A DNA stretch of 64,000 bases from Anaerolineales bacterium (GTDB lineage Bacteria; Chloroflexota; Anaerolineae; Anaerolineales; Villigracilaceae), in contig JABTUU010000002.1 of assembly GCA_015075275.1 (NCBI GenBank), forward strand, positions 496,001 through 560,000, in the 5' to 3' direction. Position numbers and translations under genes: made by a program. Below the pieces are notes generated by a model that was not told where the DNA came from, did not search any database, and saw nothing but the letters and a program-made list of their open reading frames with translations. Below, one piece after another: positions 4,933 to 63,880 of the stretch; the stretch's first letter is position 1, and the number at the start of each line of letters is the position of its first letter.

Positions 4933-5270
4933 ATGCTCCCGCCGAGAAAATCTTGTGGGAGGAAATCCGCGCAAATAAACTGGGAGTCCGCTTTCGGAGG
5001 CAGCAAGTCATTGCGGGATTCATTGTGGATTTTTACTGTCACCCCGTAAAGATCATACGGGGTCTTCGACAGGGCGGGGCTGGTTGTGGAAGTGGATGGA
5101 GATGTCCACGATTTGCAGAAGGACGAGGATGAGAGACGGGAGAGGGTGTTGAGCGAGATGGGGCTGAGGACTTGTGCTGAGCCTGTCGAAGCATTGTCCG
5201 CTTCAGAAATGATGAGGTGATGAAGAGTCTGTCCGCGGCGGTGGGGAAGATTCTTGTCTTCTTAAACTGA
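4933..5270 (+). pseudogene. DUF559 gene, copy 3, degenerate
   Basis: The sequence aligns with copies 1 and 2 from their MTPAEK codon onward but cannot be read through. A 28-nt insertion (about 5043-5070), containing a CCCCGTA/TACGGGG inverted repeat, splits the region matching DFYCH-RAGL. A second insertion of about 24 nt (near 5170) introduces GTGCTGAGCCTGTCGAAGC, a REP-like motif. Both shift the frame. The 5' end is missing and starts directly after the higA stop. Nucleotide identity to copy 1 is still high, so the decay is recent. Confidence 0.8.
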
Positions 5271-5307
5271 AAGAGCCGGGCGCTCCTACGCCCGGCTCTT
5301 TCAGTTT
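5264..5307. terminator. 19-bp perfect hairpin
   Basis: Arms 5264-5282 and 5289-5307 are exact inverted repeats (GAAAGAGCCGGGCG core) around a 6-nt loop. No long T run follows, so it may act as a bidirectional transcription block or a REP-like element. It is followed at 5310-5324 by the purine tract AAGGAGGAGAAGAGA. The rest of the gap to 5425 holds only short palindromic CGACG-rich sequence and no gene. Confidence 0.6.
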
Positions 5308-12943: not shown

Positions 12944-13017
12944 GGGCGCTTAGCTCAGTTGGTTAGAGCGCTTCTTTTACACAGAAGAGGTCAGGGGTTC
13001 GAGTCCCTTAGCGCCCA
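12944..13017 (+). tRNA. tRNA-Val (anticodon TAC)
   Basis: The acceptor arms GGGCGCT and AGCGCCC pair perfectly. The D-arm reads TAGCTCAGTTGGTTAGA, the anticodon stem-loop is CTTCT-TTTACAC-AGAAG giving anticodon TAC, and the T-loop is GGTTCGAGTCC. The discriminator is A and CCA is not encoded, so it must be added by CCA-adding enzyme. Length is 74 nt. Confidence 0.97.
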
Positions 13018-13059: not shown

Positions 13060-13157
13060 GCTTTATCGCCCAAATAAGACGCGGGCTATTTCTTTTACGA
13101 TAATCAGGTGAGGTTGATCAAGAGGTATCGATTCGATTGTTGCATTGTTGTTCATAT

Positions 13158-13170
13158 GCAGTTCAACTGC
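13158..13170. repeat. Short palindrome GCAGTTCAACTGC
   Basis: A perfect 13-nt palindrome lies in the gap between the tRNA terminator and the CPBP gene. It has the same core as the in-frame insertion at 14010-14046 and resembles the hairpin at 42270-42294, suggesting one small palindromic element family. Confidence 0.5.
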
Positions 13171-13182
13171 CGCATAAACTTT

Positions 13183-13905
13183 TCACGAGGGAAACAGTTC
13201 AGGGAATCGCATGGCGACGAGCATGGCTCCCATGGCAAACCCGTTGTTGAGGAAGTGCAAGATGACGCTGGGCCACAATGAGTTAGAACGATGATACACA
13301 TATCCCAACACGACGCCTAGGATGAACGTCGGGATGAACGAAACGGGATCGAGATGCGAGGCGGCGAAGATTCCAGAACTGAGGAGGAGCGCGGCGATCC
13401 AGCCGTAACGCTGTCGAAATCCTTGAAATAAAAATCCCCTGAAAAAAATTTCCTCCACAAGCGGGGCGACGATCACGGCAGCGAGAATCAACCAAACGGG
13501 CGATTTCAATTCGGAGAACATTTTCATCACCGCTTCGCCTTGCGTATTCACGCCGAGAAATGTCAGGAGCATGTTGTGGGCGATGATGATCGGATATGAA
13601 ATAACGATCAACCCGCATCCCAGACCCATCGTGAGCGAATCAAATTTTTTGAAACCGAGATGACTGAGGCCGATGCGTTTTGCGGCAAGGATGACCAACA
13701 CGGGTAGAAGATAGATCAATTCGCCAAACAGGATTCCCGCGCCTTGCGCGAATTGCTTTGCCTCGTCTTGAAATAAAAAGAGCGCCACGAGCATGCCGAC
13801 GTTGATCAGTATGAGCAATACGACGCCCAGCCACGTGTCTATGATCGTCCACGGGACAGAATACACCTGCGCTTCTTGCGAGACTTCAACCCGATTCTCT
13901 TCCAT
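13183..13905 (-). CDS. CPBP-family intramembrane metalloprotease (CAAX/ABI type)
   Basis: This 240-residue membrane protein has about seven hydrophobic helices and the ABI/CPBP motifs: VEEIFFRGFLFQGFR (EExxxR) near residue 150, FAASHL (FxxxH) about 40 residues later, and HFLNNGF near the end. These place a zinc- or Glu-based active site within the membrane. Bacterial members process peptides or act in stress; the substrate is unknown. Its ATG directly follows the stop of the DUF6504 gene (TGAATG), so the two are translated together. Confidence 0.88.
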   Translation of the reverse strand: MEENRVEVSQEAQVYSVPWTIIDTWLGVVLLILINVGMLVALFLFQDEAKQFAQGAGILFGELIYLLPVLVILAAKRIGLSHLGFKKFDSLTMGLGCGLIVISYPIIIAHNMLLTFLGVNTQGEAVMKMFSELKSPVWLILAAVIVAPLVEEIFFRGFLFQGFRQRYGWIAALLLSSGIFAASHLDPVSFIPTFILGVVLGYVYHRSNSLWPSVILHFLNNGFAMGAMLVAMRFPELFPS

Positions 13906-14310
13906 TCAGCCTTCTCCCAGTTCTCGATACACAACCCATTGACCTTTGCGGTCGTCCACGCTTTTCATGGCGCGGTCGTAGTAAATATCGAAGATTTGAG
14001 TTGATTCTACTTGATCGTCTCGCAGTTCAACTGCGAGACGATCAAGTGCAACTTTCACGCGGAAATAAAACCTGCCGACGTTCAACGATCCGCGATTGGA
14101 CGCAACCGCCGCGTGCTCAGGTTGCATATTGCGAGCCATCTTTCCGCGCCGCTTGAAATCCGTCCACGCGGAGAGCATTTCGATCACGCGATAGGTGTTG
14201 CCTTCCCAGATGAATCCGTTTGGGCAGGTGGGACTTTTCTCCAGCGCGGGAGGCGTATCGAAGATCACTTCAATCGGATGATCTAAAAAATGAAGCGGGG
14301 TGAATTCCAC
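13906..14310 (-). CDS. DUF6504-type protein with an in-frame palindromic insertion
   Basis: The family is small and uncharacterised; recognisable parts are FIWEGNTYRVIEMLSAW and the closing FDIYYDRAMKS with a Trp/Arg end. A GTG at 14310 is the most likely start. It begins just before the conserved block, and a GATAAT box (minus strand, 14322-14317) sits 6 nt upstream, whereas a more upstream frame start adds unrelated Arg-rich sequence. Between FRVKVA and TQIFDIYYD the protein carries DRLAVELRDDQVES, encoded by a perfect 37-bp palindrome (14010-14046). Relatives normally run straight from the FRV strand to the YRD motif. Confidence 0.65.
   Translation of the reverse strand: MEFTPLHFLDHPIEVIFDTPPALEKSPTCPNGFIWEGNTYRVIEMLSAWTDFKRRGKMARNMQPEHAAVASNRGSLNVGRFYFRVKVALDRLAVELRDDQVESTQIFDIYYDRAMKSVDDRKGQWVVYRELGEG
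14010..14046. repeat. Perfect 37-bp palindrome inserted in coding sequence
   Basis: Two 18-bp arms (left arm starts CTTGATCGTCTCGC) flank a single C. The length keeps the host reading frame open. The core CGCAGTTCAACTGCG matches the small intergenic palindromes elsewhere in the window, so this looks like a mobile palindromic unit that landed in a gene. Confidence 0.75.
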
Positions 14311-14415
14311 GCTTCGATTATCGCACACTTCTTGACCTTTTCTTGACGCCCTGCCCGCCCATCTTAACCCCAATTTGACCTACAACTGAATACACTGTAT
14401 CCAACGGAGGCACGC

Positions 14416-14511
14416 ATGAATGACATTCTCTTTATTGGATTGACCCTTTTATTCTTCGCGCTCACTTTTGGCTTGCTTGCCATTTGTGACCGCCTGATGG
14501 AGAACAAATGA
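14416..14511 (+). CDS. 31-residue membrane peptide at the head of the kdp operon
   Basis: ATG 14416 follows a strong GGAGG. The product is one hydrophobic helix (LFIGLTLLFFALTFGLLAIC) ending in the charged DRLMENK, so it should sit in the membrane with the C-terminus in the cytoplasm. Its stop overlaps the kdpF ATG (ATGA). It is not KdpF itself, but similar short membrane ORFs occur ahead of kdpF in some bacteria. The position suggests a second KdpF-like stabilising subunit. It is too short to be recognised by most gene finders. Confidence 0.75.
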   Translation: MNDILFIGLTLLFFALTFGLLAICDRLMENK

Positions 14512-14600
14512 ACGCATTGTATTTAATCACGGGCGTCGTTGCCCTGATCCTGTTTGGCTATCTCGTTGTAGCCCTATTGAAGCCAGAATGGTTTGGATAA
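14508..14600 (+). CDS. kdpF: K+-transporting ATPase subunit KdpF
   Basis: This 30-residue single-helix peptide has the KdpF pattern: a hydrophobic stretch (ITGVVALILFGYLVVALL) followed by KPEWFG at the C-terminus, which matches the family's conserved KPE(W/K)F end. KdpF stabilises the KdpFABC complex. It overlaps the preceding small ORF by 4 nt and ends 1 nt before the kdpA ATG. Confidence 0.9.
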   Translation: MNALYLITGVVALILFGYLVVALLKPEWFG

Positions 14601-14601
14601 C

Positions 14602-16293
14602 ATGAACATTTACGATTGGATTCAAATCCTTTTTTACCTGACCGTTTTGTTCGCTTTGGTCAAACCGCTGGGCGGATACATGGCGCGCGTCTATCAAAAC
14701 GAGCGCGTCATTCTTGACCCGATCCTTGGTCCTGTTGAACGATTCGTTTACCGCGCCTCAGGCATTGACTCGAAAGCCGAGATGAATTGGAAAACCTACG
14801 CCGTTGCCATGTTGCTGTTTAATGCAATCGGCTTACTGGCTGTCTATTTCCTGCAAAGAATGCAAGTCTTTTTGCCGTTGAACCCGCAGGGATTCGGCGC
14901 AGTCACTCCTGATTCTTCATGGAACACAGCGACCAGTTTCGTCACCAACACCAACTGGCAGGGCTACGGCGGCGAGACGACTATGAGTTACCTGACCCAA
15001 ATGCTGGCGATGACCGTGCAGAATTTCGTCTCTGCCGCGACGGGTATGGCGGTCTTGGTCGCTTTGATTCGCGGCATTATCCGTCATAACACAAAAGAAG
15101 TTGGGAACTTCTGGGTAGACCTGACCAGAAGCACACTTTATATTCTTGTGCCGCTTTCATTAATCTTTGCGCTGGTTTTGGTCTCTCAAGGCGTTGTGCA
15201 GACCTTCAACGAATCTCAGACCGCTTCAGCGCTTCAATCTGGCGGACAGACGATTGCGGTTGGTCCAGCCGCTTCGCAGATCGCCATCAAACAACTCGGC
15301 ACGAACGGCGGCGGATTCTTCAACACCAATTCCGCGCATCCGCTTGAGAACGCAACGCCGTTTTCAAACTTTCTGGAGATGTTGGCGCTGTTATTAATTC
15401 CCGCCGCGCTTTGTTACACCTACGGGAAAATGATCGGAGACACGCGCCAAGGCTGGTCATTGCTCATTGCGATGACAATCGTTTTCGTCTCCTTGTTGGG
15501 AGTGACGGTTTGGTCGGAGAAAACAGCCAACCCTGCGATAGAGGCGTTGGGCGTCGTCGGCGGGAATATGGAAGGCAAGGAAGTCCGCTTTGGGATTGTC
15601 AATTCCGCTTTGTGGACGACTGCCACCACTTCTGTGTCGAACGGCGCGGTCAATTCGATGCTCGATTCGTACATGCCCCTGGGCGGACTCGTGCCGATGT
15701 GGTTGATGCAACTCGGCGAGATCATTTTCGGCGGCGTTGGCTCTGGCTTATACGGCATGTTGACATTCGTCATCATTGCGGTTTTTGTGGCGGGGCTGAT
15801 GGTTGGGCGCACGCCTGAATATCTCGGAAAAAAGATAGAAGCCTATGAAATGAAAATGGCGTCCATCATCATTTTGACGCCGATCATCGTGACGTTGGTT
15901 GGAACATCCATCGCCTTGATGAGCGAAGCGGGCAGAGCCACGATCTTTAATCCGTCGGCGCATGGGTATAGCGAAGTGTTGTATGCCTTTTCATCCACTG
16001 CGGCGAATAACGGCTCGGCGTTTGCTGGGCTGGGAGCAAACAATCCGTTTTACAACACGGCGTTGGGGCTTGCCATGTTAATTGTTCGGTTTTGGCTGGC
16101 GGTCCCTGTTCTGGCAATTGCTGGCGCGTTGGCGAACAAAAAGAAAACGCCCGTCAGCGGCGGCACATTGCCGACACACACGCCTTTATTCATCGGCTGG
16201 TTGATTGGAGTCATCGTCATTGTGGGCGCGTTGAGTTATTTGCCCGCGCTGGCGTTGGGTCCGATTGTGGAACATTTGATGATATTCAAGTAA
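14602..16293 (+). CDS. kdpA: K+-transporting ATPase channel subunit KdpA
   Basis: KdpA is the K+-selective membrane subunit of the high-affinity KdpFABC pump. The 563-residue protein has ten or more helices and four pore-loop regions. The clearest filters are TNTNWQGYGGETT, GTNGGGFFNTNSAHPLENATP and TAANNGSAFAGLGANNPF. ATG 14602 is used, 1 nt after kdpF; a TTG three codons upstream lies inside kdpF. Length is normal for the family. It is separated from kdpB by a 117-bp palindromic repeat. Confidence 0.95.
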   Translation: MNIYDWIQILFYLTVLFALVKPLGGYMARVYQNERVILDPILGPVERFVYRASGIDSKAEMNWKTYAVAMLLFNAIGLLAVYFLQRMQVFLPLNPQGFGAVTPDSSWNTATSFVTNTNWQGYGGETTMSYLTQMLAMTVQNFVSAATGMAVLVALIRGIIRHNTKEVGNFWVDLTRSTLYILVPLSLIFALVLVSQGVVQTFNESQTASALQSGGQTIAVGPAASQIAIKQLGTNGGGFFNTNSAHPLENATPFSNFLEMLALLLIPAALCYTYGKMIGDTRQGWSLLIAMTIVFVSLLGVTVWSEKTANPAIEALGVVGGNMEGKEVRFGIVNSALWTTATTSVSNGAVNSMLDSYMPLGGLVPMWLMQLGEIIFGGVGSGLYGMLTFVIIAVFVAGLMVGRTPEYLGKKIEAYEMKMASIIILTPIIVTLVGTSIALMSEAGRATIFNPSAHGYSEVLYAFSSTAANNGSAFAGLGANNPFYNTALGLAMLIVRFWLAVPVLAIAGALANKKKTPVSGGTLPTHTPLFIGWLIGVIVIVGALSYLPALALGPIVEHLMIFK

Positions 16294-26867: not shown

Positions 26868-26905
26868 GAATTGACCGGCTCGTTCGAATCCGAGCCGGTC
26901 AATTC
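26868..26905. terminator. Bidirectional hairpin between convergent genes
   Basis: Arms of 15 bp (GAATTGACCGGCTCG and its complement) enclose an 8-nt loop between the aminotransferase and the HAD gene, which converge here. There is no strong T run on either side. Confidence 0.65.
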
Positions 26906-42251: not shown

Positions 42252-42494
42252 TTGTACCGAAAACAGGTTCTTGACGCAGTTGCACTGCGTCAAGGCAGGC
42301 GATACGATTTGCCAAGCAAATCGAACTGTCGCCTGAACTTTCGCCATGAGATACCAGTTGACGCGAAGTGTATTTACGCGGTACTCGTAGCCTGTGACTG
42401 TCGAGTTGGTCGTAAAAGGCACAAGCAGCGCAAGGCTCGCCACTCCCATGACTGCAAGTAGTAACACGGTGAATAGTAAAATCTTGCCCCTCAC
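42190..42494 (-). pseudogene. Remnant of a secreted/membrane protein, overrun by repeats
   Basis: A GTG at 42494 begins a frame whose first 28 residues are a good signal or membrane segment (MRGKILLFTVLLLAVMGVAS). After about 45 residues the frame is built from palindromic repeats (42270-42332) and then runs into repeat copy 2. No family is recognisable. It is best read as a gene fragment destroyed by repeat insertions. Confidence 0.3.
42270..42336. repeat. Pair of palindromic elements
   Basis: CTTGACGCAGT-TGC-ACTGCGTCAAG (42270-42294) is an 11-bp perfect hairpin. A second, imperfect one follows (AGGCGATACGATTTGC with GCAAATCGAACTGTCGCCT). The GCAGTT/ACTGC core links it to 13158-13170 and 14010-14046. 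Confidence 0.6.
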
Positions 42495-61255: not shown

Positions 61256-61293
61256 AAAAGATTTCGCGGCGTTATAACGCCGCGAAATCTTTT
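61256..61293 (+). terminator. 38-bp perfect palindrome terminator
   Basis: Two 19-bp arms (AAAAGATTTCGCGGCGTTA and its complement) meet without a gap and end in TTTT. It lies 19 nt after the FHA stop. Confidence 0.8.
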
Positions 61294-62831: not shown

Positions 62832-63827
62832 ATGAAACTCAACAACACACTTACCGATGTGCGCGGCGTTGAGGTGGGGCACGCGCAAAATGAGGACGCT
62901 CTCACAGGCTGTACCGTCATTCTCTGCCGGAAAGGCGCAGTCGCAGGCGTAGATGTGCGCGGCGGCGCGCCCGGCACGCGCGAGACCGACTTGCTGAATC
63001 CGATCAACCATGTTCAAAAAGCGCACGCTATCGTCTTGGCTGGCGGCTCCGCCTTTGGGTTAGATGCGGCGAGCGGCGTGATGCGTTACCTCGAAGAACA
63101 TAAGATTGGATTCAACGCCGGCGCGGCAAAAGTGCCTATCGTCCCTTCGGCGATCCTTTATGACCTGGGTCTTGGTCGCGCCGACATTCGGCCTGACGCA
63201 GCAATGGGATATGAAGCCGCCGCTGCCGCTTCTTCCGCGCCGGTGACTGAAGGAAATATTGGCGCTGGAACCGGCGCGTCGGTGGGGAAAATGTTTGGAA
63301 ATGCGCTGGCGATGAAAGCCGGGCTTGGCACAGCGAGCATGGATGCGGGCGGAGGCGTGGTTGTCGGCGCGCTGGTCGCAGTCAACGCTTTTGGCGACGT
63401 ATTTGATCCCTATATCGGCGTGATCGTCGCCGGACTGCGTTCCGGGAAGATCGGCCCGTTGCGCGTGGGGCGCGCCAACCATTTCGCTGATACGTTAACT
63501 ATGATGAAGAAGCCGATCGGGCGCGGCATCCTTGGCTTTGCGTCACGCGCCAATACAGTCATCGGCGTTGTAGCGACTAATGCGAAACTAGATAAAGCGC
63601 AGGCGACGAAGATGGCGCAAATGGCGCAAGACGGGCTTGCGCGCGCTATCCGTCCGGCGCATACCATGTTCGACGGCGACACGATCTTCGCGCTTTCAAC
63701 GGGAACGCGTCGGGCTGATGTGTCTTTATTAGGCGCGGTAGCGGCGGAAGCTATGACAGAAGCGATCCTTCGCGCCGCTCGAGCAGCAAAACCCGCGGGC
63801 GGCTTGCCCGGTCTCAACACAGAATAA
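62832..63827 (+). CDS. P1-family peptidase (DmpA/S58-type aminopeptidase)
   Basis: These enzymes self-cleave to expose an N-terminal nucleophile and then remove N-terminal residues. The 331-residue protein has RGVEVGHAQNEDALTGCTV, DVRGGAPGTRETDLL, LAGGSAFGLDAASGVM and the cleavage-region motif NIGAGTGASVGK, where the Ser/Thr after the Gly-rich stretch is the likely nucleophile. The C-terminus holds FALSTG and DVSLLGAVAAEAMTEAI. Start and length are typical. Confidence 0.9.
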   Translation: MKLNNTLTDVRGVEVGHAQNEDALTGCTVILCRKGAVAGVDVRGGAPGTRETDLLNPINHVQKAHAIVLAGGSAFGLDAASGVMRYLEEHKIGFNAGAAKVPIVPSAILYDLGLGRADIRPDAAMGYEAAAAASSAPVTEGNIGAGTGASVGKMFGNALAMKAGLGTASMDAGGGVVVGALVAVNAFGDVFDPYIGVIVAGLRSGKIGPLRVGRANHFADTLTMMKKPIGRGILGFASRANTVIGVVATNAKLDKAQATKMAQMAQDGLARAIRPAHTMFDGDTIFALSTGTRRADVSLLGAVAAEAMTEAILRAARAAKPAGGLPGLNTE

Positions 63828-63860
63828 AAAGACGACTTGCTGGAAACAAGTCGTCTTTTT
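63826..63860. terminator. Bidirectional terminator
   Basis: AAAAAGACGACTTG and CAAGTCGTCTTTTT form a 14-bp stem around a 7-nt loop, with A and T runs on either side, between the peptidase gene and a convergent gene. Confidence 0.85.
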
Positions 63861-63880
63861 AAAATTTGCGCAGAGGGGAT

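Follow-up and report, generated by a model that had tools for sequence, protein, structure and literature searches.

An in-frame palindrome in a DUF6504 gene of an Anaerolineales bacterium shares its core with hairpins that flank a clade of RAYT transposases

The closest described systems are the REP/BIME elements of the GTAG superfamily, which are associated with the RAYT transposase (TnpA_REP). In the literature (PMC3733652, PMC2817692, PMC8266576) they appear as hairpins of 20-40 bp with a 2-4 nt loop, a covarying stem and a 5' tetranucleotide at the foot of the hairpin, occurring as dimers and alternating arrays, mostly between genes with some copies inside them. Cleavage of the single-stranded hairpin by RAYT has been demonstrated for other REPs (PMC8266576). 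Di Nocera and colleagues report that in many species REPs also occur within genes, among them those for repair proteins and tRNA synthetases; they group the Rickettsia palindromic elements RPE-4 and RPE-6 with the CGTC REPs, which come without a linked transposase, and RPE-1 is described there as longer (PMC3733652). Rickettsia palindromic elements (RPEs) lie in frame in protein genes, some of them essential, and also in gaps. Going by the published abstracts, protein-coding palindromic repeats are also found, in different hosts, as the Wolbachia palindromic element and PARCEL, the latter a tandem intragenic repeat (PMC2996958), and in the mitochondria of Nematomorpha, where they reach up to 284 bp (PMC6649704). 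How such protein-coding elements spread is poorly understood. Here we characterize a coding palindrome and its repeat family in Anaerolineales; we found no paper on this repeat in Anaerolineae or Chloroflexi in the open-access literature.

The window, by which we mean the whole 64-kb stretch of DNA analysed, contains a DUF6504 gene on the minus strand at 13906-14310. Its likely start, judged from homologues, is the GTG at 14310; the listed open reading frame starts at a TTG at 14373. The gene product matches the Pfam DUF6504 domain with E=2.8e-25. Because the nearest relative (G020, L007/L035) carries the gene without an insert, the extra segment could be set at 42 nt, or 14 codons, at 14008-14049 (minus strand), encoding ALDRLAVELRDDQV. 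Positions 14009-14047 form a perfect 39-bp palindrome with 19-bp arms around a 1-nt centre. Palindromes with such arms and a centre no longer than 1 nt are expected by chance about 5e-7 times per 64 kb at equal base frequencies, and the palindrome folds as RNA at -32.3 kcal/mol (z -7.4). A sequence-only reading had described a perfect palindrome of 37 bp that extends the protein in frame; perfection and in-frame insertion were confirmed, the latter against the uninserted sister gene, while the length is 39 bp.

Within the palindrome lies a 31-bp repeat unit (14013-14043), which in the minus-strand reading consists of GATCGTCTC, GCAGTTGAACTGC and GAGACGATC and whose boundary was drawn from pairing in 127 distinct copies. 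It follows the formula GTT-N6-GCAGTTGAACTGC-N6'-AAC, that is, a 13-bp core within 9-bp arms that end in GTT...AAC. The core GCAGT-TGA-ACTGC (14022-14034, loop TGA on the minus strand) is invariant, an invariance partly built in by the search pattern. Pairing at positions 1-9 outside the core ranged from 55 to 90% in the 127 copies, each position above its shuffles, with 82-90% at distances 1-7 versus 29-74% expected and all four Watson-Crick pair types at positions 1-6. From position 10 outward pairing was at chance across the copies overall, which was also the outcome when we looked for arm extension by template switching. Because the arms vary yet pair, and because pairing reaches the chance level at position 10, we infer a unit of about 31 bp in which the hairpin is required and the stem sequence is free. 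The sharp outer boundary is stronger evidence than the covariation, part of which may reflect shared ancestry of the copies.

Counts of the exact core GCAGTTSAACTGC were high in several relatives compared with a reversed-pattern control (G027 48/0, G018 45/0, G024 34/0, G011 32/1, G015 28/2, G057 25/0, G019 22/5). Among 400 genomes sampled across the phylum, more than 5 copies were counted only in members of the same family and, outside it, in the single genome G345. In the window's own genome (G000), examined via pattern searches and selected stretches, no more than 4 exact cores were counted, versus 2 for the control, implying that the repeat is not amplified there. Thus, several relatives present a small hairpin within the 20-40 bp range of REPs in many copies (the 31-bp unit, with 25-48 exact cores), and the window's genome does not. 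The genome-wide search for the core, as proposed from the sequence alone, thus showed amplification in sister species rather than at home.

The same reading had placed the core in two further palindromes of the window. One of them, at 13149-13179, does contain the exact core (GCAGTTCAACTGC, 13158-13170) between imperfect arms; it lies just downstream of a CAAX-protease gene (13183-13905, minus strand), and copies are found downstream of the same gene in other species too. The other, at 42267-42294 on the plus strand, is a hairpin of a related subfamily with a different loop: its core, GCAGTTGCACTGC at 42276-42288, is one base off the exact core and has a TGC loop, and the GTTC at its left (42267-42270) makes it one-sided. 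Its perfect arms span 42270-42294, with no strong coding signal around. Counted with mismatches in the 64-kb window alone, the core occurred 3 times versus a mean of 2.35 expected, which is not above chance, and the evidence for a repeat family therefore comes from the relatives. In several Anaerolineales genomes, copies occur both between genes and in frame within genes, including essential ones, which bears out the proposal that one element family occupies genes and gaps alike. Other features of the window were seen in passing. A search for known structured RNAs returned only a tRNA (12944-13017). Long perfect inverted repeats without coding signal around them lie at 5264-5307, 26868-26905, 61256-61293 and 63825-63861 and may be terminators or other palindrome families. 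At 14506-16293 (plus strand), short open reading frames followed by a KdpA-like protein resemble, by eye, the beginning of a kdp operon for potassium transport (kdpF, kdpA).

Two kinds of hairpin could be distinguished by loop and tag. Those with TGC, TGT or TGG loops have about 5 bp of pairing beyond GCAGT, and a tetranucleotide resembling GTTC immediately precedes the stem on its 5' side. Under a loose definition, 23 of the 37 hairpins had this tag at their left and 4 had it at their right; these hairpins are not independent, because many come from three RAYT arrays (L165, L197, L198). This one-sided arrangement is the REP layout with GTTC replacing GTAG. The TGA-loop copies, including the window's, are symmetrical, since they are tagged at both sides (92 and 82 of 132), the tag being paired with GAAC. 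A GTAG tag was rejected: the tag is GTTC/GTTY, and its fourth letter was G in 1/37 and 17/132 copies. CGTC occurred within the arms of some copies, where it was paired, unlike the unpaired tag of the CGTC REPs, with which RPE-4 and RPE-6 are classed (PMC3733652). The Anaerolineales (Chloroflexota) family has the hairpin size, loop length, covarying stem, foot tetranucleotide, paired and arrayed copies and mostly intergenic, partly intragenic placement of the REP/BIME systems, as well as, for its TGC/TGT/TGG-loop hairpins, the RAYT association, and differs from them in host, in its GTTC/GTTY tag and in the TGA-loop subfamily, in which tags at both ends yield a nearly perfect palindrome.

We screened IS200-like Y1 transposases for a mobiliser and then inspected their flanks. 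A RAYT gene in the complete genome G011 (L165:1411-1971) is closely flanked, to left and right, by seven hairpins of the GCAGT-NNN-ACTGC type, including an imperfect one. Its product matched the TnpA_REP structure 4er8 (5e-6), and relatives with 59-83% identity were found in four other genomes. The two clade members that were scanned, L165 and L197, scored 101 and 111 bits with NCBIfam REP_Tyr_transpos (NF047646), versus a cut-off of 80. The HxH motif (H61/H63) is invariant in all five proteins, and YIHxNP, the region of the catalytic Tyr, is present in four, the fifth (L199) having been read only in part. The clade, whose genes lie outside this window, thus shows the profile, the HUH motif and the catalytic Tyr region of the RAYT class. 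GCAGT-NNN-ACTGC hairpins accompany all five genes, on both sides in G011, G104 and G055 and in smaller number in G021 and G034, so that the linked-RAYT (REPtron) arrangement is present for the TGC/TGT/TGG-loop hairpins. None was seen within the stretch read at 25 more distant RAYT loci (L201-L225), many of which have other palindromes. Of 152 genomes, 15 have at least 20 copies of GCAGTNNNACTGC, and these include four of the five that carry the clade (Fisher P=3e-4), a value that is indicative only, as the threshold of 20 was picked post hoc, the RAYT arrays add to the TGN counts and the genomes are phylogenetically non-independent.

Further RAYT loci were recorded alongside. Around the G055 gene (L198:1160-2640), about 20 alternating GCAGT-type hairpins form a BIME-like array. 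The RAYT loci of G018, G027, G024, G057 and G015 were rejected as mobilisers, their close flanks being free of GCAGT-NNN-ACTGC; at two of these loci, L168 and L178, TGA-loop cores lie about 1.4 kb away. Other RAYTs are flanked by other palindromes, of the AGACTTCCGAAGTCT type at L180 (G019) and of the AAGTGACAGTCACTT type at L176 (G024), L179 (G019) and L169 (G027).

Based on these findings, we consider it likely that a small REP-type mobile hairpin, non-autonomous and mobilised by this RAYT clade or a close relative, gave rise to the palindrome as one of its in-frame copies. The transposase would recognise the single-stranded hairpin together with its 5' tag (GTTC-N5-GCAGTTGNACTGC) and insert copies; those landing inside genes would survive only if they are in frame, keep the frame open and fall in a permissive surface turn. 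The loci compared gave no clean pair of an empty and a filled site with a target-site signature. That the clade moves the TGA-loop units as well is suggested by the core, stem, tag and neighbourhood that the two kinds of hairpin share. The main competing explanation, which we regard as rather unlikely, is a dispersed mobile palindrome with a different mobiliser, be it another HUH transposase, another RAYT, or copying by replication slippage or template switching. It draws on the difference in loops, TGC, TGT or TGG beside the RAYTs and TGA in the dispersed family that includes the window copy; a single imperfect TCA/TGA-type copy (L165, G011) was the only member of the TGA-loop family at a RAYT, with no perfect one seen. 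TGA-rich genomes in which no clade RAYT was seen exist too (G018, G027, G024 and G057, several of them fragmented MAGs), as do CGTC-type REPs reported to have no linked transposase (PMC3733652). Against it stand the core, stem length and GTTC/GTTY tag common to dispersed and RAYT-flanking hairpins, and the occurrence of the hairpins at 5/5 clade RAYTs versus 0/25 other RAYT loci. No intact clade RAYT was found in the window's genome (best match E=3e-4); because that genome is without this RAYT and has few copies, the REP-type hairpin in the window is probably a relic, or else a sporadic newcomer.

The repeat was also sought in other genes, as the sequence-only reading had proposed, and the search was positive. 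At least 7 of the 32 exact copies in the complete genome G011 lie in frame in genes, namely those for ValS, GuaA, AlaS, Mfd, CinA, ArgS and DUF6504; units are present in ArgS and GuaA of G018, and paired units in CinA and, at a second site, AlaS of G024 and in GuaA of G027. Genes were named from PDB matches for the G011 proteins and from visible similarity for those of other genomes. In PDB alignments, solved homologues of ValS, GuaA and ArgS have a gap at the insert; AlaS, Mfd and CinA were left out of this evidence, as their alignments put the insert at an edge or break. Both GuaA and ValS have relatives without the insert. Within the genus, GuaA has no insert in the window's genome, G008, G012, G014, G017, G023 and G009, carries units in G011, G024, G018, G015, G020 and, in altered form, G022, and has different extra sequence at the same site in G013 and G016. 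The ValS loop holds this repeat in G011 and G015, unrelated in-frame inverted repeats, AGACCTCCGAGGTCT-like or CCTTCCGAAGG-like, in G018, G008, G019, G021 and the window's genome, and still other inverted repeats in G014 and G017. With unrelated inverted repeats there in different species, this loop has evidently been hit by several palindrome families. One unrelated type among the ValS-loop repeats, AGACTTCCGAAGTCT, flanks its own RAYT in G019 (L180). The window's own genome has CCTTCCGAAGGTTCCGAACCTTTGGAAGG at the loop (L282; loci compared L276-L287). The CinA gene of G011 (L101:7968-9230) has PPLPSGEGLGVR beside its GCAGTTSAACTGC unit, which looks like a second inserted-repeat type. Peptide frames containing Cys (QLNC/QFNC) were used at 0/8 distinct intragenic sites, weak evidence with a chance of about 0.017 by simple arithmetic with three of five open frames allowed, or 0.026 with nine loci and a cruder null.

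We then asked how the insert is distributed among DUF6504 proteins, of which relatives were found in 72 of the 152 genomes of the same family; a further search added 26 loci on named contigs of Anaerolineales and Chloroflexota. RVxV-D[TS]G-QIFD is what most relatives have at the position; they are without the insert, as is the Pfam domain itself, so that the segment is far from universal, whereas its presence in all lineages would have refuted the sequence-only reading. Inserts of this repeat family occupy the turn in nine genomes (the window's, G019, G008, G015, G011, G018, G022, G024 and G027); both DUF6504 copies of G019 have extra residues there. They are pieces of one repeat read differently, PAVELRDE-like or SSSTAGQ-like, with two units in G015 and G024 and part-units plus one whole unit in G011, G018 and G027, and all lengths compared are multiples of three. 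MAG contigs end or break at the insert (L060 at its start, G024:C211, G024:C66), which suggests that such palindromes interfere with assembly and that the counts for fragmented MAGs are too low. An AlphaFold2 model (40 sequences, mean pLDDT 74) places insert residues 94-106 at the turn of a predicted beta-hairpin, in the loop that joins strands 83-93 and 107-115. Given this turn, the many variants found in it and the frames used, the 14 added residues are probably near-neutral.

When the insert columns are left out of the tree, the insert label needs at least 4 changes, and supported branches force every one of them; G027 and G022 fall outside the main carrier group, and the sister L035 has no insert. 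The history at this turn requires several gains or losses, and the number of gains is not fixed, because a single gain followed by two losses could account for three of the changes. The main carrier group of the genus may also go back to one ancestral DNA insertion, with divergence and a loss in L035 afterwards. Much less credible is a local origin, in which duplication or template switching made the insert in the DUF6504 turn and it is palindromic by accident. Perfect palindromes can arise by template switching, the window copy (14009-14047) pairs for 4 bp past the 9-bp boundary, and composite inserts of half and full units in DUF6504 and GuaA suggest that units were rearranged locally once they had arrived; as sole cause, however, a local origin is contradicted by the recurrence of the core at unrelated sites across many genomes and genes and by the sharp outer boundary. 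Equally improbable is a segment ancestral to DUF6504 proteins and lost in most lineages: several close relatives do have an insert at the same turn, but it is missing from the Pfam domain, most of the family and sister L035, its peptides (AVEL and SST) are read from different strands and frames across species, and the tree puts carriers apart, which contradicts the protein-level version.

The window palindrome seems to work like an RPE, as had been suggested; the parallel is right as an analogy, in that a palindrome sits in frame in protein genes as well as in gaps. Intragenic REPs are already published; what appears to be new is the family, its GTTC tag, the symmetrical subfamily and the shared loops hit by unrelated palindromes. 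We tentatively speculate, with less confidence than in the REP-type origin itself, that a RAYT-moved hairpin whose non-canonical GTTC tag became symmetrical, and whose open frames encode mild hydrophilic peptides, could invade coding loops repeatedly. The core and 5' tag of the coding palindrome recur in RAYT-flanking hairpins, in high-copy genomes that include the complete G011, and the question of its mobiliser is thereby open to ordinary biochemistry. The inserts in ValS, GuaA, AlaS, CinA and ArgS are natural maps of insertion-tolerant loops. If the symmetrical, RAYT-moved hairpin is real, it would provide a concrete mobiliser for RPE-type palindromic coding elements, and the turns of ValS, GuaA, CinA and DUF6504 would be landing pads common to unrelated REP families.
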